Part shown: positions 5,854 through 18,829 of the stretch, in pieces | Layout of the letters: each line of letters starts with the position of its first letter | Numbering within the stretch: position 1 is the stretch's first letter | IMG/VR virus record: IMGVR_UViG_3300029908_000178 | Span: 1-20,739 of that record | Strand: one strand, 5' to 3' | Origin: a virus | DNA: 20,739 bases | Made by a program: the position numbers and the translations under genes | The notes under the pieces: generated by a model | What the model saw: only the letters and a program-made list of their open reading frames with translations | The model's database searches: none | What the model was told of the DNA's origin: nothing

Positions 5854-6312
5854 ATGAAGTCGAATAAAGGCTATTTTAAACCATTTAATCCACAAAAATA
5901 TAAAGGTGATCCAACAAACATCGTTTATAGGTCTTCGTGGGAACTACGAGTGATGTCGAGGTTTGATACCGATCCGAACATACTCGAATGGGCGTCTGAA
6001 GAGTTCTCCGTTCATTATCGATCTAAGTCAGACGGAAGGGTTCATAGATACTTTCCTGATTTTCGTGTTAAACTAAAAGATAAAGATGGTAAGGTTAGAA
6101 CAATTATTATAGAGGTTAAACCATTGCGCCAAACACTTCCTCCAGTTAAACCAAAGGTAAAGAATCCAAAATCAGATAAAAGGTTCTTTACAGAGTGCCT
6201 GGAATATGCTAAGAATCAGAGCAAATGGGAAGCGGCTAAAATTTATTGTAAGGAAAGAGGATTTGAGTGGCTTGTTATGACAGAAGTGGAGATATTTGGG
6301 AAGAAGTTCTAG
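5854..6312 (+). CDS. 4: Head completion nuclease gp4 (gp50/gp4 family)
   Basis: This 152-residue protein matches T4 gp4 (about 150 residues), a virion protein needed to finish the filled head before tail joining. Conserved stretches are NPQKYKGDPTNIVYRSSWE (residues 12-30), NILEWASEE (42-50) and GRVHRYFPDF (61-70). The fold is a PD-(D/E)xK nuclease: Pro68-Asp69, then Glu87-Val-Lys89 in the strand TIIIEVKP. The start is the first ATG after the divergent late promoter region. Its last 38 bases overlap the 3' end of the minus-strand homing endonuclease. Confidence 0.93.
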   Translation: MKSNKGYFKPFNPQKYKGDPTNIVYRSSWELRVMSRFDTDPNILEWASEEFSVHYRSKSDGRVHRYFPDFRVKLKDKDGKVRTIIIEVKPLRQTLPPVKPKVKNPKSDKRFFTECLEYAKNQSKWEAAKIYCKERGFEWLVMTEVEIFGKKF

Positions 6313-7039
6313 TATTTATGTGTTCAAATCCTTTATAACCAACTCTACCAATGATGTGGATATTTTCATTAAAATCTTCTTTTTTTATTCTTCTATGTTT
6401 TTTGTTTTCTTTTTCTGTAACCCAAATTAATTTGCTAATATTTTTTGACATTGTTTCTTTTGTTTCTTTTGTATGTTTTTTACCAGTCATTCCAGTAGTA
6501 GTATTTTCTCTTCTCCAAGCAGCAAGTTTTTCAGCACGTTCTTTAGTATATTCACCACGTTTTCCTCCATGATGAGTTCTAGGGCTTCTTCCTAATTTCC
6601 AATTTTCGTTGAATTCTGAAATTTCATGGAGATATATTTGTTTTTCTTCTAATGTTTCTTTATTATAAATCCATTTTTTATTTCTTTTTGAAGATGATAA
6701 CTTTTCTTTTATTTCTTTTGTTCGTATATAAGGTGTCATTCCAGAAATACCTTCACCACCTGCCGTCATATTATAATGTGGTTTTAGTATAGCTATCCAA
6801 TAAATTTCACGTTCATTAAGATTTTCTTTTTTATTGACTTCTTCTATAACTTCGAATATAAAAGATTCTTCACCATATTTCAATAATGCAAATTGAAAAT
6901 GGGTTAATGGTTTATTATGACGTTGACAATACTTTACACTACCTTTATGTTCTGTCCATCTTTTATTTGGATTTTTGTGTACTGTTTTACCAATATAAAA
7001 ATCCCCATTTGTTTTGTTAATTATCTTATAAATATACAA
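6275..7039 (-). CDS. GIY-YIG homing endonuclease with NUMOD3-like DNA-binding motifs
   Basis: The N-terminus has the GIY-YIG nuclease core: YIYKI at residues 2-6, YIGKT at 15-19, the conserved Arg27 in NKRW, the catalytic-type Glu78 in NEREIYWI, and the closing YNMTAGGEG near residue 89. Repeated Lys/Thr/Glu motifs (RTKEIKEKLSSSKRNKKW, HTKETKETMSK) look like NUMOD3 helices that grip DNA. Free-standing enzymes of this kind (Seg proteins in T4) cut related phages lacking the gene and spread by repair. It lies antisense between gp4 and the probable gp2, overlapping the gp4 3' end by 38 bases. It has its own exact TATAAATA box 17 bases upstream and an AGGAG ribosome site. All motifs look intact, so the enzyme is probably active. 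Confidence 0.92.
   Translation of the reverse strand: MYIYKIINKTNGDFYIGKTVHKNPNKRWTEHKGSVKYCQRHNKPLTHFQFALLKYGEESFIFEVIEEVNKKENLNEREIYWIAILKPHYNMTAGGEGISGMTPYIRTKEIKEKLSSSKRNKKWIYNKETLEEKQIYLHEISEFNENWKLGRSPRTHHGGKRGEYTKERAEKLAAWRRENTTTGMTGKKHTKETKETMSKNISKLIWVTEKENKKHRRIKKEDFNENIHIIGRVGYKGFEHINTRTSSQISPLLS
7027..7034 (+). promoter_or_regulatory. TATAAATA box facing the probable gp2 gene
   Basis: An exact TATAAATA on the plus strand lies about 80 bases before the likely gp2 start. It falls inside the first codons of the endonuclease on the other strand, where codons for Tyr-Ile-Tyr-Lys can produce it, so it may be a coincidence of coding. It is the best late-promoter candidate for the gene downstream. 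Confidence 0.4.
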
Positions 7040-7064: not shown

Positions 7065-7113
7065 GAAAGACCACTCTTGACAGAGCAACATATATATGGG
7101 GATAAAAATTAAT

Positions 7114-7719
7114 ATGGTTTATCTTTTTCAGGCAATGGCCAAGGCGCGTAGGCTTGCTGGTATTCCAAAGAATGCCTCCACACGGCCACAGGCATCGGCA
7201 TGGTATAGGGAACAGGCACTGGCTGCTACAAATGCGTCTGGTTCAAGAATTAAAGAGTCGGTTAATTCATCACAGACACTTAATAGAATAAATGATAATC
7301 ATATTGGTAAGATGTATTTCTTCATGTATGATCCGAAACACAAAGCCACATTACCTTATTATGATACTTTTCCTCTGATCTTTCCTATTGAGTTGTATAA
7401 GGATGGTTTCTTGGGTATCAATTTACATTACCTTCCACCTATGGCTAGGGCAAGGTTAATGGATGCCTTATATGAGACAGTAAACAATAAGAGATATGAC
7501 GCCACCACCAAATTAAAAATTAATTATCAAATATTAAAAGGTGCTAGTCAATATTCTGCATTTAAACCTTGCATCAAAAGATACTTATTCTCCTTCATGC
7601 GCTCGAATTTTATTAGAATCAATCCTGAAGTATGGGATTATGCGTTGCAACTTCCCGTGGCTAACTTTCAAAAACAATCACAGGAGACTGTTTGGCTCGA
7701 GAGTATGTTAAAGTTTTAA
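7114..7719 (+). CDS. Probable DNA end protector, gp2-like virion protein
   Basis: This 201-residue protein has an Arg/Lys/Ala-rich N-terminus. Its core (GKMYFFMYDPKHKATLPYYD near residues 68-87, then FPLIFPIELYKDGFLGINLH and a Leu-Pro-Pro) I associate with the gp2 DNA-end-protector family of T4-like phages. In T4, gp2 coats packaged DNA ends against host RecBCD. The position next to gp4 supports this, because genes 2 and 4 are neighbours in T4. It is shorter than T4 gp2 (about 274). I prefer the ATG at 7114, with GGGGA 11 bases upstream; ATG at 7096 or 7135 are alternatives. The family name rests on recall and synteny, so treat it as tentative. Confidence 0.5.
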   Translation: MVYLFQAMAKARRLAGIPKNASTRPQASAWYREQALAATNASGSRIKESVNSSQTLNRINDNHIGKMYFFMYDPKHKATLPYYDTFPLIFPIELYKDGFLGINLHYLPPMARARLMDALYETVNNKRYDATTKLKINYQILKGASQYSAFKPCIKRYLFSFMRSNFIRINPEVWDYALQLPVANFQKQSQETVWLESMLKF

Positions 7720-11944: not shown

Positions 11945-12537
11945 ATGATAACTTTTCGTGAAGCCTCAACTAACATACTCATTAAGTACTCTGTCAATCC
12001 TCTCTTTACTGAGTTTATGGAGATGGATCTAATTAATAAGGATGTGATACTCGCGGGAGGATCACTCCGACATCTTTTTAATGAAGATGAATTGATCTGC
12101 GATTTTGACGTATTCTTTACCAATAGAGAATCTGCTATTGAGACAGGTTTGATCTTAGAAAAAAATGATTATAAGATTATCGTTAAATGCCCATTAGGTC
12201 ATCTAACGACATATAGGAAGATAGCAAAGTTCAGTTGATTACAGAAAGAACTTATTTTGGTGTTCAAGATCTAATTGATAGTTTTGATATTACTGCCTGT
12301 AGATTCGCCTATGATGGTACTAACATCCATACATATTATTCCGCCATCCGGGATGTTAAAAATAAGGTTATCAATCTGCATACTATTACTCATGCTGCAG
12401 CGACGTTTAAACGTATCCTAAAATATCAGACGAAAGGATATAATGTTTCAAGAAGCTGTATCTCGAAGTATGTGGATACAATATATCAATCAGGCATCAA
12501 CGGTAAGGAATTGGATATGCGTTTTTATATAGATTAA
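11945..12537 (+). pseudogene. Nucleotidyltransferase-fold protein, split by a single-base frameshift
   Basis: The N-terminal frame (ATG 11945) carries the nucleotidyltransferase signature: VILAGGSLRHLF at residues 34-45, then the metal-binding pair Asp53-x-Asp55 in CDFDVFF, as in CCA-adding and related enzymes. That frame stops at TGA 12236-12238. The other frame opens at 12217 and reads SKVQLITERTYFGVQDLIDS, continuing through FDITACRFAYDG and a basic helical C-terminus to TAA at 12537. The two halves fit end to end with one base restored between 12214 and 12236, giving about 197 residues. The span is one base short of a multiple of three. The active-site motifs are all in the first half. 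Its substrate is unknown. It is the last plus-strand gene before the terminator. Confidence 0.7.
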
Positions 12538-12556: not shown

Positions 12557-12591
12557 AAAATACCGACATCAATAATTGATGTCGGTATTTT
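12557..12591. terminator. Bidirectional intrinsic terminator
   Basis: A perfect 16-bp stem (12557-12572 with 12576-12591) closes a 3-base TAA loop. Its core CCGACATCAA pairs with TTGATGTCGG, flanked by A-runs on one side and T-runs on the other. It therefore acts as a hairpin plus U-tract in both directions. It lies exactly between converging genes that end at 12537 (plus) and 12593 (minus). Confidence 0.93.
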
Positions 12592-12821: not shown

Positions 12822-13145
12822 TTACCTTCCCCTATTAGCTTCTTTTAACCCCACCTGAAAAGCTAAACGAGTCAAATTATAAACGAACAGGTCAAACTCT
12901 TCACGCATTTCTTTTAGAGTCGTAGCAGTTTTGTTTCGAAGATAATGTTCGAACACCTCTGGTGGTTGATATCCCTTGGTGGAGTTGCATTTATAACATG
13001 CTACCACAACGAGTCCTTTATCAACCACTTTAGTGAACCGCTTTGGCTCGTAATGGTCACGAGTTCGAAGTGCTTCCGGGTTATTCTTTGCCTCTGGTGT
13101 TTTGGCCTTGTAAGTAAGTTGTTTGCAGTAATAGCAGGTAGTCAT
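12822..13145 (-). CDS. HNH-type endonuclease-like protein
   Basis: A 107-residue protein with the layout of a small HNH nuclease. A first zinc knuckle CYYC lies at residues 4-7. The catalytic-type strand and turn RTRDHYEPKRF follows near residue 28, and a second knuckle with the Asn loop, CYKCNSTKG, near residue 51. A helix with PEVFEHYL then takes the place of the final His. The C-terminal 40 residues are helical. Enzymes of this size can be homing nucleases, packaging-associated nucleases or restriction enzymes. No intron or terminase gene is nearby, so the role is open. The start is ATG 13145, 12 bases after the first FDF-tail paralogue. Confidence 0.72.
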   Translation of the reverse strand: MTTCYYCKQLTYKAKTPEAKNNPEALRTRDHYEPKRFTKVVDKGLVVVACYKCNSTKGYQPPEVFEHYLRNKTATTLKEMREEFDLFVYNLTRLAFQVGLKEANRGR

Positions 13146-13157
13146 ATTATAAATCCT

Positions 13158-13382
13158 TCAGAAGTCAAAAACCATTTGAAGTTTTGGTGCTAATTTTTTG
13201 AGTCGGTAGGCAAAGTATCCACCAACACAATTATCATCCCATCTAACAGTAATAAGGGTAGTATCATCGTATTGATTAGGAGGAATATGAAGAACTACTC
13301 CTTTTTCACCAAATTCTCTAACACCATGATTATACTCATTAAAGATGACGATTTCACCTACACTAAATTGATGTAACTGCAT
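13158..13382 (-). CDS. FDF-tail paralogue 1 (SH3/KOW-like, tail KLQMVFDF)
   Basis: A 74-residue protein, last of six tandem paralogues in transcription order. The body follows the shared pattern: VGEIVIFN, an insertion loop, GEKGVVLHI, then VRWDDN and YRLKKL, which suits a five-strand SH3/KOW barrel. It ends KLQMVFDF. The closest relative is the next copy upstream (REFGEKGVV against REYGEKGIV; GGYFAYRL against NGYYAYRL). It is preceded by the shared ribosome segment GGAGAAGTGATATG. Function unknown; see the finding on the tail. Confidence 0.75.
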   Translation of the reverse strand: MQLHQFSVGEIVIFNEYNHGVREFGEKGVVLHIPPNQYDDTTLITVRWDDNCVGGYFAYRLKKLAPKLQMVFDF

Positions 13383-13394
13383 ATCACTTCTCCA

Positions 13395-13625
13395 TCAGAA
13401 TTCGAAGGTCATCTGCAACTTTTGATATTTTGCAAGGCGATAAGCATAATAACCATTCGAAAGTTTATCTTTTTCCCACATGACAGTGACCATAACTTCT
13501 GCACCATCTAATATATCATCTATATAAGTAACTATTCCTTTTTCCCCATATTCACGATAGCGAGAATATTGTCCACCGTGTTCATTCCATATGACAGTAT
13601 CATCAATTTGAAATTCGCATAACAT
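13395..13625 (-). CDS. FDF-tail paralogue 2 (tail KLQMTFEF)
   Basis: A 76-residue protein, sister of paralogue 1: IDDTVIWNEHG, REYGEKGIVTYI, VMVTVMWEKD, NGYYAYRLAKY, ending KLQMTFEF. Both Asp-to-Glu and Val-to-Thr changes in the tail keep its aromatic and Met positions. The ribosome segment GGAGAAGTGATATG is the same as for paralogue 1, and the gap between the two genes is 12 bases. Confidence 0.75.
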   Translation of the reverse strand: MLCEFQIDDTVIWNEHGGQYSRYREYGEKGIVTYIDDILDGAEVMVTVMWEKDKLSNGYYAYRLAKYQKLQMTFEF

Positions 13626-13637
13626 ATCACTTCTCCA

Positions 13638-13862
13638 TCAGAATTCGAAGGCCATCTGCAGTTTTGGTGTGACTTTCTTGAAGCGCATCGCCAATGTTCC
13701 AAATTCAGGCAGATTATTGATATATATCATTTGATACTCACCATGAGAATCGTCATCGGTGGCAGTCACCGTAACAATTTCGCCTTCTGCTATCGTGTTC
13801 CCAAAACATCCTCTACGATATCTGTTATCGGTAAAGATGAGTTTATCACCAACTTTAAACAT
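13638..13862 (-). CDS. FDF-tail paralogue 3 (tail KLQMAFEF)
   Basis: A 74-residue protein opening MFKVGDKLIFTDNRY, then GEIVTVTATDDD, QMIYINNLPE and MRFKKV, ending KLQMAFEF. The body has diverged well away from copies 1 and 2 while the tail stays nearly identical. The upstream AAAGGATAGAATC ribosome segment differs from the GGAGAAGTG type. Confidence 0.75.
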   Translation of the reverse strand: MFKVGDKLIFTDNRYRRGCFGNTIAEGEIVTVTATDDDSHGEYQMIYINNLPEFGTLAMRFKKVTPKLQMAFEF

Positions 13863-13873
13863 GATTCTATCCT

Positions 13874-14104
13874 TTAGAAGTCGAAGGCCATCTGAAGTTT
13901 TAGTGCTGGTTCAAAACGAGAGGAATATGCACCAAGATTAAAATTATCAACACGAACTAATGTAGTGTCTCCAGCATATTTTGGTGGATCAACTTCACGT
14001 ACAGTAAAAATTTGTCCTTCAGAAGTACCATAGAAATGATTTCTACGATAATAGTCATCTTCCCTTCTGAATCTGACTTTATCTCCAACATGAAAGTTAC
14101 TCAT
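13874..14104 (-). CDS. FDF-tail paralogue 4 (tail KLQMAFDF)
   Basis: A 76-residue protein opening MSNFHVGDKVRFRREDDYYR, then GQIFTVREVDPP, TTLVRVDN and SSRFEPAL, ending KLQMAFDF. An Arg/Tyr-rich first loop (RREDDYYRRNHF) is strongly basic and could touch nucleic acid. Its ATG overlaps the stop of paralogue 5 by 4 bases. Confidence 0.75.
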   Translation of the reverse strand: MSNFHVGDKVRFRREDDYYRRNHFYGTSEGQIFTVREVDPPKYAGDTTLVRVDNFNLGAYSSRFEPALKLQMAFDF

Positions 14105-14310
14105 AACACTTCTCCGAAGTCAAAAACCATTTGAAGTTTGGTTATTATTTCAAGTCGACGGACATACATAGTATGTACCTCATAATGTAGATCAAATTTT
14201 ACATCAACCATGTTGTCAAAATTAGGCTCCGTCAGCACAGTTCCAATATCTCCGTAATCAGCTTCCCCATAATGGAGAGAGATTAATTTGACTCGGTCAC
14301 CTTTTTTCAT
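14101..14310 (-). CDS. FDF-tail paralogue 5 (tail KLQMVFDF plus GEVL)
   Basis: A 69-residue protein: KKGDRVKLISLHYGEADYGD, GTVLTEPNF, VDVKFDL, YVRRLEII, then KLQMVFDF followed by GEVL. This is the cleanest SH3/KOW pattern of the set (GDRV, then GDIGTV, then a V-x-V-x-F strand). The extra GEV codons (GGA GAA GTG) are the ribosome site of paralogue 4, whose ATG overlaps the stop by 4 bases. Confidence 0.75.
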   Translation of the reverse strand: MKKGDRVKLISLHYGEADYGDIGTVLTEPNFDNMVDVKFDLHYEVHTMYVRRLEIITKLQMVFDFGEVL

Positions 14311-14543
14311 GCCACTTCTCCAAAATCGAAAGCCATCTGCATTATCTCTCTAGAGATTATCACTCGGAGTTGCAGCAACCAACAGTTTTTATTACACTCA
14401 TAACCAATGAATTCAACTCGAATAAATTGGGATCGATTAATCTCTATAATATATCCAATACTTCCTATCGGAACAGATACTCGATCCATATTATATGGGC
14501 GACCAATTAACTGGACCCTATCACCAACTTTAAAATTGAACAT
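14307..14543 (-). CDS. FDF-tail paralogue 6 (tail MQMAFDF plus GEVA)
   Basis: A 78-residue protein. I prefer the ATG at 14543 (MFNFKVGDRVQL), which aligns with the paralogues and has AAGGGA upstream; an ATG at 14552 would add three residues. It continues with GSIGYIIEI, FIRVEFIG and LLQLRVII, then MQMAFDF and GEVA. The tail-proximal Leu is replaced by Met, and the two cysteines in the third loop are unique to this copy. It is the first gene of the tandem array. As in copy 5, the GEV codons double as the next gene's ribosome site. Confidence 0.73.
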   Translation of the reverse strand: MFNFKVGDRVQLIGRPYNMDRVSVPIGSIGYIIEINRSQFIRVEFIGYECNKNCWLLQLRVIISREIMQMAFDFGEVA

Positions 14544-14560
14544 ATTGATCATCCCTTATT

Positions 14561-14603
14561 AGTTTATAGAATAGCACCTCCTTAGATGCTATCTATATAA
14601 ACT
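14561..14603 (-). other. Intercistronic RNA hairpin with a perfect anti-16S sequence in its loop
   Basis: Directly after the stop of the GGCT-like gene, the minus transcript can fold AUAGCAUC with GGUGCUAU (one G-U pair), extended by AGUUUAUA with UAUAAACU-type flanks with small bulges. The loop and 3' arm contain UAAGGAGGU, the full complement of the 16S rRNA tail. No ATG follows at usable spacing; the next start codon is more than 20 bases away. The structure is stable only on the minus strand because of the wobble pair, so it belongs to this transcript. There is no U-tract, so a simple terminator is unlikely. Confidence 0.55.
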
Positions 14604-15139
14604 TACTTGGAATTAGCTACCTTCTTTTCAAGAGCAGGTTCACCCAATAAACCTCTATACCGCTTCCTTCCCATTTTCTGGTCATTATATCTACGCTTGC
14701 GCAGGTAATGGGTCGGTTGCTTATACTGCCATGACTCTTGAATAGCAGCATCAAGAGTATCAAACGGGATTCCAAAATCTTTGAAGCCCTGCTTAATCAC
14801 ATGAAAATAGTAATCATTGGGAGGTAGGATTCCTTTTTCATTCATGGTATAGGTTAGCACTTCTTCACCATGATAGTCAAAGTATTCCTTGCTATACAGG
14901 TAGAAGTCCACACCTTCGTAGATATCAAGAGCATCTTCACACTCTTTTGTAATCTCCCATAAAGCACCATCAAGTGTGCTACCGGGACATTGTTCAATGT
15001 CAGCAACACCTCTGAATACCAATTTAAAATCCTCAATTTTGAGTCTTTTAATTGGTTCAGCTTTTGGACATCTCTTGAGCATTTGCTCCATGTTCAAATT
15101 GCTTCCGTATGCGTAGTAAAGCATTTTCACTTTCTCCAT
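14603..15139 (-). CDS. Gamma-glutamylcyclotransferase-like enzyme (AIG2/GGCT fold)
   Basis: This 178-residue protein opens with the fold's hallmark YAYGSNLN (residues 9-16), the loop that binds the gamma-glutamyl group, followed by QMLKRCPKAE. The catalytic glutamate is visible as Glu75 in LDIYEGV, the counterpart of the essential Glu in the QEGV motif of human GGCT. A YEKEY-like strand and the YFHVIKQGFKDFGIP helix complete the fold. Members release a gamma-linked glutamate as 5-oxoproline from small molecules or modified amines. The last 30 residues are very basic (RKRRYNDQKMGRKRYRGLL), which is unusual and may bind nucleic acid or a partner. Start is ATG 15139 or ATG 15124; the latter puts GGAG 9 bases upstream and would trim five residues. 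It lies next to an amidoligase. Confidence 0.85.
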   Translation of the reverse strand: MEKVKMLYYAYGSNLNMEQMLKRCPKAEPIKRLKIEDFKLVFRGVADIEQCPGSTLDGALWEITKECEDALDIYEGVDFYLYSKEYFDYHGEEVLTYTMNEKGILPPNDYYFHVIKQGFKDFGIPFDTLDAAIQESWQYKQPTHYLRKRRYNDQKMGRKRYRGLLGEPALEKKVANSK

Positions 15140-15150
15140 GTTATAGAACT

Positions 15151-15179
15151 ATATTACCACACCACTGCCATCTAATCAA
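15151..15179 (-). promoter_or_regulatory. Possible sigma70-type promoter for the GGCT-like gene
   Basis: The minus strand reads TTGATT (15174-15179), a 17-base spacer, then TAATAT (15151-15156), preceded by TGTGG that resembles an extended -10. It lies 12 bases before the ATG at 15139. Matches are partial, so this is a moderate candidate for a second promoter after hairpin element D. Confidence 0.45.
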
Positions 15180-15210
15180 GTGATAAGATAATAACTAAAT
15201 TAAACACATG

Positions 15211-15236
15211 GTAAGGGAAGTATTTCATTCCCTTAC
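15211..15236 (-). other. Conserved-loop hairpin, copy D
   Basis: Arms GTAAGGGAA (15211-15219) and TTCCCTTAC (15228-15236) pair perfectly over 9 bp around the 8-base loop GTATTTCA (TGAAATAC on the transcribed minus strand). The loop is identical to the other three copies, but the stem sequence is entirely different. It begins 7 bases after the stop of the 76-residue gene and precedes the GGCT-like gene. Confidence 0.85.
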
Positions 15237-15243
15237 TATTTGC

Positions 15244-15474
15244 TTAACTTACGTTGACTTGGATCAACAACCCCGCATCTTTTAGATCTTGTACGAAGTC
15301 CATAATCTTTCCGGTTCGAATAGTTCGGCCAGTTTGAATATGTGCCCTTCGTGCCACATCTTCCATGAAGCGTATTGTTGAATTTGTTGGACTATATGAA
15401 GCATTTTGGAGGTCTTTAACGAATTGCCTATCGTTAGGACTCCAAAATGCTTTTCCATCATTTGTTATGTACAT
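15244..15474 (-). CDS. Small protein between amidoligase and cyclotransferase, unknown function
   Basis: A 76-residue protein, ATG 15474, 14 bases after the amidoligase stop, with GAGG upstream. It opens MYITNDGKAFWSPNDRQFVK, then two helices (FMEDVARRAHIQTGRTIRTG, KIMDFVQDLKDAGLLIQV) that end in a strand, an arrangement like a small winged helix. Sitting between the two gamma-glutamyl-type enzymes, it could be their peptide substrate, a specificity factor or unrelated. Nothing in the sequence decides this. Confidence 0.72.
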   Translation of the reverse strand: MYITNDGKAFWSPNDRQFVKDLQNASYSPTNSTIRFMEDVARRAHIQTGRTIRTGKIMDFVQDLKDAGLLIQVNVS

Positions 15475-15488
15475 TACTCAGCCTCGAT

Positions 15489-16991
15489 TCACGCAAAATG
15501 CGCTATTCTAGCGTTGATATAATTAGCAGTACTTTCTTCAAACTGCATTATATCAAAGAACGTTTGTTTATTAAAGGTGAAATTATGGGAAATATGATTC
15601 CTTTCAACTTGATCCCGATTCAACCAATAACGTGTGCTTGTTTTATTAGTGAACCAATCGCGCTTCTTCTTGGACTTAACACTCAACCCAAGTTGTTTAA
15701 TAAGGGATGCGCATTGAGTCAGGTTTCCAGAAGCATTACCGATTGCAACATTATATTCCGCAGTGGTAACACCAGATGGACGCATCAACATTTCAACGAA
15801 CAAGTGACGGTTCGTTCCACGACGGCAAGGATTAACAAAATTTCCGTTGACCCTCGAAGACCTTGCAGGTGTCATTATATTAGCGGGAAGACCTTGTTTT
15901 GATCTATCCACCATCGACATGCAAAGTTTGATCCAGTTCATGATTTTCTTATAGTCTAATGAACCGGCATGCTGCCTAAATTCAACCGTACCATGACGCC
16001 AGTAAGATTGAATGTTCAACTTCATGTAACGATAACCACCGGAAATGTCATACTGATTCCCGATGACATTTCCAAGCTCTTCCAGTGTTGTAGCATTTGC
16101 AATGCTTTCCAAGGAAACAACGTTGCTCTTGCAATACGTTGCATTTTGTTTACGTCTGCTTTCCGGCATTATGGTGTCGATAAGTGGTTCATAACCAGAA
16201 TACAAACTGAACAGGTTCTTGAAGAAGTCAAGGTTTTCGTCGCGCACACCGATATGAACGTGTACACCACACTTTTTGTCAATTTTACAACCAATGAACT
16301 TCAACACCTTACATACTTCGGCCAACTGTTTCAGACCATCGTCACCCATAAGAATGGGAGAAACCAGTTCGAGACCATGTTCATAGTCTTCCAAGGAACC
16401 ATCAGTCACCATTTTCCAATATGGGCGAGTGTGATGATTATAGAAACCATCTTCTTTGGAATCGATACCCATATCTTTAAGTTTGGCGATGATTTTCTTT
16501 TTGGATTCTGCGCCGGGCTTGTTCTTCGGAAGGTAGAACTCCAGCTCAACACCAAATGTTAACGCTTGGTTCAAAAGGTGGTCCTCCTCACTAAAAGAGT
16601 CACCAAAACCTTCGACTTCTTCACCAAATAAAGTTCTTGTGACTTCATGAATTACCAGTTGACGATGGGGAGTGATATATTCATCAGACCCAATTGTGTT
16701 TTCATCAACGACACTGCCATCCAAAGTAGCGCCATCCAGCATTGTATGCTGCATATTAGCGCCAGTCAAGATAGCATTCGTCAAATTGGCTCCACGCAAA
16801 TTCGTGAAGTAAAGATTTGCACCGGAAAGGTCAGCATTTGACAAATCCGAATAACTAAAGTCGGCATAACGAAGGTCTACATCAGCCAGATTTGCGAAAG
16901 ACAGGTTACTAAACGAATGTCCATCCTGACGCAAATCAAATTCTGTTTCAAAGATTATTTCGTTGTCCCGTCTATCCCTAATAATAGCCAT
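15489..16991 (-). CDS. Pentapeptide-repeat / amidoligase (COOH-NH2 ligase, glutamine-synthetase fold) fusion
   Basis: This 500-residue protein joins two modules. Residues about 27-95 are pentapeptide repeats (ANLADVDLRYADF, NADLSGANLYFTNL and further A-N/D-L-x-x units), forming a right-handed beta-helix used for binding. Residues about 143-360 are a predicted amidoligase of the glutamine-synthetase-like COOH-NH2 ligase group: GVELEF at 147-152, TDGSLE at 196-201, LELVSP at 207-212, CGVHVHIG at 241-248, and HGTVEFRQHAGS at 333-344. These supply the metal-binding acids and the phosphate-binding Arg and His. Such enzymes use ATP to join a carboxyl and an amine. Residues about 405-458 resemble a winged helix (TTAEYNVAIGN to TSTRYWL). 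The start is ATG 16991, with AAGGA 9 bases upstream; an in-frame TTG two codons earlier is less likely. A good promoter lies just upstream. Confidence 0.85.
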   Translation of the reverse strand: MAIIRDRRDNEIIFETEFDLRQDGHSFSNLSFANLADVDLRYADFSYSDLSNADLSGANLYFTNLRGANLTNAILTGANMQHTMLDGATLDGSVVDENTIGSDEYITPHRQLVIHEVTRTLFGEEVEGFGDSFSEEDHLLNQALTFGVELEFYLPKNKPGAESKKKIIAKLKDMGIDSKEDGFYNHHTRPYWKMVTDGSLEDYEHGLELVSPILMGDDGLKQLAEVCKVLKFIGCKIDKKCGVHVHIGVRDENLDFFKNLFSLYSGYEPLIDTIMPESRRKQNATYCKSNVVSLESIANATTLEELGNVIGNQYDISGGYRYMKLNIQSYWRHGTVEFRQHAGSLDYKKIMNWIKLCMSMVDRSKQGLPANIMTPARSSRVNGNFVNPCRRGTNRHLFVEMLMRPSGVTTAEYNVAIGNASGNLTQCASLIKQLGLSVKSKKKRDWFTNKTSTRYWLNRDQVERNHISHNFTFNKQTFFDIMQFEESTANYINARIAHFA

Positions 16992-17024
16992 GACCAAACA
17001 TCCTTTATTTTTGTATCATTTAAG

Positions 17025-17053
17025 ATGATACTCTATCTCAAAGACACAGTCAA
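17025..17053 (-). promoter_or_regulatory. Sigma70-type promoter for the amidoligase cluster
   Basis: The minus strand reads TTGACT (17048-17053), a 17-base spacer and TATCAT (17025-17030). Each box matches 5 of 6, with ideal spacing, 33 bases before the ATG at 16991. It begins a unit of amidoligase, 76-residue gene and, after hairpin D, the GGCT-like gene. The rest of 16992-17137 holds nothing else I can identify. Confidence 0.72.
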
Positions 17054-17137
17054 CCGGAGATTAGTTCACTTCTCTATTCTATTCTAGATTCCATTTATCT
17101 CTCCAAAGTGTTGAATTTTGTTAAAATCTATCTCCTT

Positions 17138-17308
17138 TTATTTAAAAACAGCACGAAATACACCCCAAATGAACCGCACGATGATCACACCAATAAATCC
17201 ACCAATAACAGTTCCAACTGTCACCGGACCTTTATTTGCTGCTTTTTTAACAGCAGGAAGTCGTTGCGCACGTTGCACTGGAACGACTCTTCGTCTTCTA
17301 GTTGTCAT
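17138..17308 (-). CDS. Basic single-pass membrane peptide
   Basis: A 56-residue protein from ATG 17308 to TAA 17138-17140, with a strong AGGAGGG ribosome site 5 bases upstream. The first 28 residues are very basic (MTTRRRRVVPVQRAQRLPAV then KKAANKG). Residues about 29-50 are a Gly/Val/Ile helix (VGTVIGGFIGVIIV), followed by RFIWGVFRAVFK. A basic N-terminus followed by a single helix predicts an inner-membrane peptide with the basic end inside. It lies just downstream of hairpin copy A. No family recognised. Confidence 0.7.
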   Translation of the reverse strand: MTTRRRRVVPVQRAQRLPAVKKAANKGPVTVGTVIGGFIGVIIVRFIWGVFRAVFK

Positions 17309-17340
17309 TTCACCCTCCTTACATAATAAAGCATATAATA

Positions 17341-17364
17341 GATGGGCAGTATTTCATGCCCATC
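17341..17364 (-). other. Conserved-loop hairpin, copy A
   Basis: Arms GATGGGCA and TGCCCATC pair perfectly over 8 bp around the loop GTATTTCA (TGAAATAC in the minus transcript). ATTATATAT flanks it on the 5' side and CTATTATA on the 3' side. It lies 10 bases after the stop of the 99-residue gene and 32 bases before the basic membrane-peptide start. Confidence 0.9.
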
Positions 17365-17374
17365 GATATATAAT

Positions 17375-17674
17375 TCATTCGTAATAGGGACGTTCTTCTG
17401 GATAATAATCAGGAGGGAACTTGTCTTCATAAAAACAAGCAGTATATTCCCCTTGACTTAATACAGAAGAAATTGATCGCCTTCCTTTGTTAACCCATTT
17501 ACAAAGTCTTCGATTATAACGGAAGCAAAACTTTTCCGCATGATCTTCATCATCGAAGGCAAATATCCTCCTTCCTTTTTCACGTTCACCACATCCATAG
17601 TACCAGCCGCCTTCTTCTGCCCCACCGTAGGCAAGATCCGTTAAATAAACGGTCACAAAGTAAAGATGCTTCAT
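17375..17674 (-). CDS. Small phage protein with DLAYGG-EEGGWYYG motif, unknown function
   Basis: A 99-residue protein, ATG 17674, GGAG 9 bases upstream. A first strand (YFVTVYLTDLAYGGAEEGGW) leads into a helix starting FDDEDHAEKFCFRYN, then a Tyr/Pro-rich acidic end (DKFPPDYYPEERPYYE). The strand-helix-strand layout looks like a small ferredoxin-like or DUF-type protein. I have an impression that the AYGG-EEGGW-Y motif recurs in small proteins of other T4-like phages, but cannot name a family. Confidence 0.7.
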   Translation of the reverse strand: MKHLYFVTVYLTDLAYGGAEEGGWYYGCGEREKGRRIFAFDDEDHAEKFCFRYNRRLCKWVNKGRRSISSVLSQGEYTACFYEDKFPPDYYPEERPYYE

Positions 17675-17686
17675 TTTACTTGCTCC

Positions 17687-17908
17687 TTAGTCCGTTTCAG
17701 TGAACACATCAACCGTGATCATGTAATCACAAGTGAATTCATTGAAACGTGGACTGTAACATTCACGCCATTTTCTATGCTTTGTTTTCAATTCTTCCTT
17801 TTTTTCGACACATGCTTTAAAACTGGCTGGTCCAAATTCATATTGATAACCATAACCATAACCAGCACCTTTCTCTTTGGAAAAGAGATAACATGAATTG
17901 TTGGACAT
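17687..17908 (-). CDS. Small protein, unknown function
   Basis: A 73-residue protein whose ATG (17908) shares one base with the previous stop (TAATG). It starts with four tandem Gly-Tyr-type pairs (GAGYGYGYQYEFGP), then a Lys/Glu-rich helix (FKACVEKKEELKTKHRKWRE), then a strand with TCDYMITVDVF. No family recognised. Confidence 0.68.
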   Translation of the reverse strand: MSNNSCYLFSKEKGAGYGYGYQYEFGPASFKACVEKKEELKTKHRKWRECYSPRFNEFTCDYMITVDVFTETD

Positions 17909-18198
17909 TAGCTATCCCCATCGTTTATAAGTCTCTGAGCAGCAAGCATTCCATCAAGAAATGCTGCCATTTCACTTTTAGTAAGGGAATTGTAATTCCC
18001 GTTAATGGATCGAACACCTGTTGAGTTGTGACACAACTGTTCCAGATCCCAACCAGAAGTGTTTTCAACCAGACAAACATTATCATGCTGTGGCTGATTA
18101 ACACCATCAACCTTGATATAATGTTCGCCATAGGTTAGGCCAACAAGTTCACATGCTAGTTTAGCACGTTTTTCAAGAAAAACCTTTGTGTATTTCAT
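17908..18198 (-). CDS. Small protein, unknown function
   Basis: A 96-residue protein, ATG 18198, with GGAG 8 bases upstream, coupled to the next gene by a one-base overlap. A basic N-terminal helix (FLEKRAKLACELVG) precedes a loop-rich middle, and a helix (SEMAAFLDGMLAAQRLIN) ends the protein. Its first codons, ATGAAATAC, contain the same 8 bases as the hairpin loops nearby, but no comparable stem surrounds them. Confidence 0.68.
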   Translation of the reverse strand: MKYTKVFLEKRAKLACELVGLTYGEHYIKVDGVNQPQHDNVCLVENTSGWDLEQLCHNSTGVRSINGNYNSLTKSEMAAFLDGMLAAQRLINDGDS

Positions 18199-18211
18199 AA
18201 CACCATCTCCA

Positions 18212-18595
18212 TCAATCGCTTGAGTCGACCGTCATATCCATTCCGCAGTGTTTGCATCGACCGGGAAGCCAACCACGATTATGATTTGCACCAGCACCTT
18301 CTTCTTTTTGATGCTTGCATATAGCAAATTCACCGAAGTTGTCAGGATATGCAAGAACATATCCGTTTCCACCATAAACATAGGGAGGAGATCCCATACC
18401 GGCACCAAACAGGAAGTACTGCGCCCATTGTTTATGCCCATTTATTAGAGCATATCCCCAACGCGGTTCCATCATATGACCACCGGAAGCAATATTACGC
18501 AACAGGAGGTCTGAAGGAAGTTTCTTGAAGTTGGGTAGAGGCACATCACCATTTACTATTGGCATGAGGTCTTTTTCATATTTGTAATCCATCAT
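18212..18595 (-). CDS. Small protein with C-terminal zinc-knuckle
   Basis: A 127-residue protein, ATG 18595, AGGAG 6 bases upstream. The N-terminal 60 residues include a Pro/Leu-rich segment. The middle is Gly/Tyr-rich (GAGMGSPPYVYGGNGYVLAY). The C-terminus has Cys93, His105, Cys114 and Cys117 in a C...H...CxxC order (GRCKHCGMDM), likely binding zinc. Domains of this type are frequent in small phage proteins and often bind nucleic acid, but no specific role is visible. Confidence 0.7.
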   Translation of the reverse strand: MMDYKYEKDLMPIVNGDVPLPNFKKLPSDLLLRNIASGGHMMEPRWGYALINGHKQWAQYFLFGAGMGSPPYVYGGNGYVLAYPDNFGEFAICKHQKEEGAGANHNRGWLPGRCKHCGMDMTVDSSD

Positions 18596-18607
18596 ATATA
18601 CTCCTGT

Positions 18608-18829
18608 TTAGAATTCGAATTCCATCTGTTTCGTTTCCACTAACTCCACACGATAATGATACATCCAATTTCCTTCTGAATAAGGATCATGAAAATTATC
18701 ATCGAAACGAACACGAACATATGTCGGATCACAGAACATAACTGTTCCAATCCATCCTTTGGATGGACCACATGAATATGGATCATCACAAATATATTTG
18801 ACTCGTTGTCCTTTTCTAAAAGGTAACAT
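18608..18829 (-). CDS. FDF-tail paralogue 7, detached from the array (tail KQMEFEF)
   Basis: A 73-residue protein 4 kb from the tandem array with the same design: RKGQRVKYICDD, GWIGTVMFCD, YVRVRFDDN, YRVELV, ending TKQMEFEF. The Leu of the tail is lost but Gln-Met-x-Phe-Glu-Phe is kept. The start is ATG 18829 with AGGAGA upstream, 21 bases after hairpin copy B. Confidence 0.75.
   Translation of the reverse strand: MLPFRKGQRVKYICDDPYSCGPSKGWIGTVMFCDPTYVRVRFDDNFHDPYSEGNWMYHYRVELVETKQMEFEF

Follow-up and report, generated by a model that had tools for sequence, protein, structure and literature searches.

The window analysed here, the whole of IMG/VR record IMGVR_UViG_3300029908_000178 (20,739 bp), carries seven small minus-strand genes, g1 to g7, whose products combine divergent SH3/KOW-like bodies with a shared C-terminal peptide, QMxF[DE]F. 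Judged by its sequence, this tail (KLQMxF[DE]F in its longer form) reads as a bacterial hexapeptide for binding the beta clamp (DnaN), in a flavour that has Phe at position 4 and there misses the strict E. coli consensus. The favoured reading, which is considered reasonably probable, is that the genes form a tandemly expanded SH3/KOW-barrel family that would be tethered by this bacterial-type clamp hexapeptide to the DnaN of the host; that the tail docks, which clamp it meets and what this does to the host are all inferred. The seven genes and the junction element found in their array are as follows.

13158..13382, minus strand: g1, a 74-residue SH3-like protein with the C-terminal tail KLQMVFDF (open reading frame (ORF) call and AlphaFold2 model)
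13395..13625, minus strand: g2, a 76-residue SH3-like paralogue with the tail KLQMTFEF
13638..13862, minus strand: g3, a 74-residue SH3-like paralogue with the tail KLQMAFEF
13874..14104, minus strand: g4, a 76-residue SH3-like paralogue with the tail KLQMAFDF
14101..14310, minus strand: g5, a 69-residue SH3-like paralogue with the tail KLQMVFDF followed by GEVL
14307..14552, minus strand: g6, an 81-residue SH3-like paralogue with the tail IMQMAFDF followed by GEVA
18608..18829, minus strand: g7, a 73-residue dispersed SH3-like paralogue with the tail TKQMEFEF (AlphaFold2 model)
13384..14321, minus strand: four copies of the Shine-Dalgarno (SD) sequence GGAGAAGTG, each immediately following a tail (those of g2, g3, g5 and g6)

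All seven ORFs lie where an earlier note on this DNA had placed them, and the size range of 69-78 residues given there holds for six, g6 being 81 residues long from its first ATG and 78 from its second. Genes g1 to g6 form a tight array (13158-14552), with g7 (18608-18829) 4 kb away, and a profile of the seven brought up no further copy in the window (best remaining match E=0.18). The bodies share 17-43% pairwise protein identity. In the tail, QM and both Phe residues are invariant in 7/7, Asp or Glu stands between the two Phe, and any two paralogues agree at 4-6 of the six positions; by composition, 3e-5 C-termini of the form QMxF[DE]F would be expected among the 132 ORFs of the window. The description of the tail as C-terminal and as starting with KLQM applies to most copies rather than all. 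It occupies the extreme C-terminus in five of the seven, while g5 (QMVFDFGEVL) and g6 (QMAFDFGEVA) run on by four residues because the stop is missing and the GGAGAAGTG of the next gene is translated; KLQM likewise holds in five, with IMQM in g6 and TKQM in g7.

The DnaN-binding hexamer has been summarised as Q-phi-x-[L/M]-(x)-[F/L], located at the C-termini of Pol II and Pol IV (PMC11139829, a 2024 review), and in E. coli Pol IV the C-terminus QLVLGL is an established clamp-binding site (PMC3716654). The family tails have Gln at position 1 in 7/7, Met at the aliphatic position 2 in 7/7 (as do the DinB tails QMGFDF and QMDFDF) and, where the motif places a terminal Phe or Leu (position 5/6), Phe at position 6 in 7/7. 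The most abundant phage-display DnaN ligand, LQLELDF (PMC11139829), is close to the family tail LQMAFDF. Native Pol IV C-termini sampled from DinB loci (L496, L506, L510-L567) read QLKFDF, QLKFEF, QLRFEF, QLKFAF, QLTLDF and QLELEF in Bacteroidota, and QLTLGL, QLALKL and QLSLF in Pseudomonadota. The Pol IV clamp tail thus varies by phylum, QLxF[DE]F being common in Bacteroidota and QLxLxL or QLxLF in Pseudomonadota.

The family peptide itself also ends bacterial and viral proteins of DNA metabolism. IMG/VR and GTDB were scanned with QM[V/A/D/E/G]F[DE]F-stop and the proteins identified by Pfam/PHROG. The ending was found on two Pol IV/DinB proteins, with KLQMGFDF (L372; an Ignavibacteria tail) and ILQMDFDF (L433), on the NAD-dependent DNA ligase LigA (L367, with L369, L396 and L429 alike by sequence), RNase HII (L422), a RecQ-type helicase (L402), a 5'-3' exonuclease (L398, with L437 alike), a C5 DNA methyltransferase (L395), topoisomerase IV A (L393), a transposase, phage phrog_93 endonucleases (L307, L335) and several bacterial photolyases. 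In viral contigs, 17 of the 70 matches to the real tail closed an ORF of 45 residues or more; for a scrambled control, MQFxF[DE]-stop, the figure was 0 of 16. The earlier note's idea of a sliding-clamp-type tail on small barrels is accordingly supported, by the same C-terminal peptide on Pol IV, LigA, RNase HII and other replication and repair proteins and by the exposure of the tail in structural models, although the clamp that the note named is probably the wrong one. A scan of IMG/VR with K[hydrophobic]QMxF[DE]F gave no C-terminal matches, the tail peptide had no match in the PDB, and a search for phrog_7871 was uninformative, with zero matches anywhere.

Two further groups of proteins with this ending were seen. 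In photolyase-family proteins of Tateyamaria, Roseovarius, Caulobacteraceae and Burkholderiales, Q-M-[GA]-F-[DE]-F follows a low-complexity linker (loci L366, L362, L387, L391, L403, L406, L409, L414, L416, L417 and L440), which suggests that these photolyases may be clamp-tethered through such ends; the literature searched gave no account of such tethering. Related small phage proteins of IMG/VR, apparently coiled-coil, end QMEF[DE]F (L296, L299, L306, L308, L331, L333 and L345), and tblastn with one small IMG/VR protein carrying a QMEFEF tail gave no match in named phages.

What is unusual in the family is the tail and not the body, since barrel matches are widespread in phages and the relatives found in one of them are tail-less. 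AlphaFold2, run for g1 and g7 on alignments of the seven proteins, models a five-strand SH3-type barrel with predicted template modelling scores (pTM) of 0.65 (g1, strands 11-63) and 0.70 (g7, strands 9-63). Foldseek matches include SAWADEE, Tudor, SPT5 KOW5, Pif1 SH3, YorP and PsaE/PetP-like folds (TMq about 0.5-0.65 for the first five and about 0.5-0.7 over SH3, Tudor, KOW and PsaE/PetP-like barrels, E about 0.01-0.1), together with many phage SH3-like, DUF4314 and DUF2187 proteins, so that the SH3/KOW-like bodies proposed earlier are borne out. Pfam and PHROGs searches with all seven proteins gave SH3-like matches below threshold only. In Shigella phage vB_SdyM_006, a profile of the family picks up N-terminal SH3 domains of proteins (E=8e-7 and 2e-4); a tblastn match to this phage had looked spurious, but the profile search reveals SH3 domains of the family type, which lack the QMxF[DE]F tail in the sequences read. 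A related-locus search with one member and tblastn against phages, whether with a single member or with the seven combined, gave no true relative. No relative with the tail was found in the collections searched, and no tailed SH3 family is present in five large T4-like contigs and Sinorhizobium phage phiM7, read ORF by ORF. In both models the tail lies outside the barrel, neither model having secondary structure after residue 63 or in the last ten residues, with predicted local distance difference test values (pLDDT) of about 62-76 in the last two blocks; packing of the tail into the fold, which the earlier note had named as grounds for giving up a clamp tail, is thus not seen.

Several observations weigh against docking on the host clamp. 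Phages of the T4 type normally encode a clamp themselves, and the 20,739-bp contig has no genes for DNA polymerase, gp45, gp55 or gp33 with which the tails could be compared. The host and the flavour of the motif do not match: among Pol IV tails the Phe-4 flavour was seen in Bacteroidota, the window uses SD sequences at 23 of the 32 genes checked, and such use is not typical of Bacteroidota phages. A Bacteroidota host, inferred from the tail flavour, was set aside on account of this strong SD use. Proteins outside DNA metabolism, namely a GGDEF protein, a DUF6216 protein and an ArsR regulator, also end QMxF[DE]F. Finally, position 4, which is Leu or Met in E. coli DnaN ligands, is Phe in 7/7 family tails, a departure from a consensus that is E. 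coli-derived, and Phe at this position weakens inhibition in E. coli (PMC11139829). However, Phe at position 4 is also native in the Pol IV tails of Bacteroidota and Ignavibacteria, and because Phe-4, Asp/Glu-5 and Phe-6 occur together in native Pol IV tails, it is taken as a native flavour of the clamp motif and a variant of the strict consensus.

The alternative that survives best, although it is unlikely, is that gp45, the clamp of the phage itself, binds the tails as it binds those of gp43, gp55 and gp33, which would bring the barrels to the replication forks or the late promoters of the phage. The left third of the window is T4-like by PHROGs (gp5, the baseplate hub, gp27-type, gp53, gp48, gp4 and gp2), so the phage should have a gp45. 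Residues after the gp45-binding motif are tolerated, as g5 and g6 would require, T4 gp55 carrying SLDFLYEAND. The nearest T4-like match is the tail of RB69 polymerase, SLFDMF- in a PDB alignment, whose final two residues are DF as the earlier note gives them; only its L and FDF fall in register with KLQMxFDF. The motif shared by gp43, gp55, gp33 and ligase is likewise a short hydrophobic/acidic C-terminal peptide, but it reads L[DE]x[FL][FY], without Gln and with a large hydrophobic residue at position 4, where the family has Gln at position 2 and A/V/T/E at position 4. T4-like polymerase tails, including those of the closest named relatives, read SLDFLFG (T4), TLDCF (phiM7), TLDSFFA (DLP_6), SLEDFFS (pf16), SLDSFFI (S-SRM01) and ELDMF (phiM9), and about 80 cyanophage-like ones read NL[DE]xFFx or SLDSFFx (for example NLELFF); none of those read contains the Gln of a Gln-Met core, which tells against gp45 as the target named in the earlier note. 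T4-like loci totalling 2.73 Mb contain 8,332 ORFs of 60 residues or more; of these, 89 end L[DE]x[FLM][FY], mostly gp43 but also a methyltransferase (LDQFFN), and the Q-type hexamer ends only one, of 60 residues. The window's own N6/N4 DNA methyltransferase (PF01555; 9727-10767, plus strand) ends ADLVSFFDD, which resembles a gp45-type LxSFF, its LVSFFDD being nearer than the family tails to the gp45-type LDQFFN that ends a T4-like methyltransferase in L237 (17541-18329); from these sequences, gp45 tails may occur on methyltransferases of T4-like phages as well. In phiM7, the 100-residue PHIM7_14 (phrog_25831, L270:4204-4506), encoded near the primase-helicase gene, ends KKQLELF, a near-canonical beta-clamp pentamer.

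A less likely alternative still is that the tail is a peptide for another partner, or a self-association strand, and that its likeness to a clamp motif is coincidental. Short motifs are degenerate, and unrelated proteins share the ending. However, the matches are mostly replication and repair enzymes, including Pol IV with its known C-terminal clamp site, and the tail is without structure in both AlphaFold2 monomer models.

Lastly, the tail could be kept by processes at the DNA level, tail and SD together serving as recombination homology of the array units, with gene conversion rather than peptide function behind its constancy. The tail DNA of g1 and g5 is identical (18/18 in the core, 24/24 including KL) on bodies that are 27% identical, which indicates that recombination, too, has moved tails between copies, and the variation of tail codons between copies reported earlier, true of most pairs, fails for this one. 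The GGAGAAGTG copies (0-based starts 13384, 13627, 14106 and 14312) mark conserved tail+SD junctions of the array. Nevertheless, this explanation is mostly rejected and very improbable, as other tails differ synonymously (g6 and g4 agree at 6/6 residues and differ by 3 synonymous codons), the dispersed g7 keeps QMEFEF with no GGAGAAGTG after it, and a junction hot spot leaves unexplained why the peptide matches a clamp motif.

Under the favoured tethering to host DnaN, the tail would fit into the clamp's hydrophobic cleft, and each docked protein would place a different small barrel there. The docked proteins would probably compete with the polymerases and repair factors of the host or redirect its replisome, either way a form of host takeover; shut-off of host replication, as with Twort gp168 and G1 gp240 (PMC3594737), or recruitment could also follow. 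Divergence of the bodies might, speculatively, reflect a different partner for each barrel or escape from a host counter-measure. A more specific picture, tentative and at somewhat below an even chance, is that a lytic T4-like phage with an expected clamp of its own still deploys seven diversified barrels on host DnaN, many heads with a single tail in common. They would be a modular set of effectors of the host clamp that takes over or blocks the replisome of the host or the clients that serve it in repair and defence.

The remaining features of the window are listed below.

5854-6312: gp4, head completion (PHROGs)
6275-7039, minus strand: an endonuclease gene of the GIY-YIG homing type, situated between those of gp4 and gp2
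7096-7719: gp2, DNA-end protector (PHROGs)
12557..12591, minus strand: a 16-bp hairpin terminator at the end of the presumed g6-g1/12822/12593 unit
14603-15139 and 15489-16997, minus strand: an AIG2-type gamma-glutamylcyclotransferase and an adjoining pentapeptide-repeat/amidoligase fusion

From their spacing, g6 to g1, an HNH-like gene (12822-13145) and a 75-residue ORF (12593) probably form a single transcription unit. The divergent arrangement of gp48 and gp4-gp2 is also found in phiM7 and Stenotrophomonas phage DLP_6, and the identity of gp4 reaches at most 51% among named phages and 59% in IMG/VR, so that the window has no close relative in the collections searched. The GIY-YIG gene is antisense and overlaps the end of gp4. 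The cyclotransferase and the amidoligase fusion are a possible pair for ligation and removal of peptide or glutamate. Two ORFs at 11945-12537 (plus strand) overlap in different frames and resemble a single protein, possibly nucleotidyltransferase-like, broken by a frame change, and the contig starts (1-120) with an exact 36-bp tandem repeat in 3.3 copies.

DnaN-acting phage proteins, phage SH3 barrels and this type of motif are already known; the collections and literature searched gave no diversified small-barrel array with a common clamp tail of the bacterial type, and no description of a multigene family that joins a constant clamp tail to a diversifying domain. If the reading is correct, the phage addresses the host clamp whereas T4-like phages normally use their own, the tails are natural ligands of the DnaN cleft, and QMxF[DE]F and related C-termini offer a sequence handle for unannotated phage proteins of host takeover. 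The phylum-dependent flavour of the clamp motif (QLxF[DE]F in Bacteroidota, QLxLxL or QLxLF in Pseudomonadota) could moreover help to predict phage hosts.

Compared with known systems, the family shares with the Pol IV-type DnaN motif its place at the extreme C-terminus (5/7), the Gln, an aliphatic position 2, a free position 3, an acidic position 5 (seen in several native tails) and a last Phe, on a tail that is unstructured in the models. The known carriers are enzymes, whereas here the tail sits on 70-residue SH3 barrels in seven copies on one contig. In its barrel body the family is like the small SH3-like proteins of phages (DUF4314, DUF2187, PsaE-like and the vB_SdyM_006 N-terminal domains), from the last of which it differs by the tail. 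The host target proposed is that of two DnaN-targeting phage proteins listed in Table 2 of PMC3594737, Twort gp168 and G1 gp240; these are single proteins of Staphylococcus phages, whereas the family described here is a tailed, multigene SH3 set.

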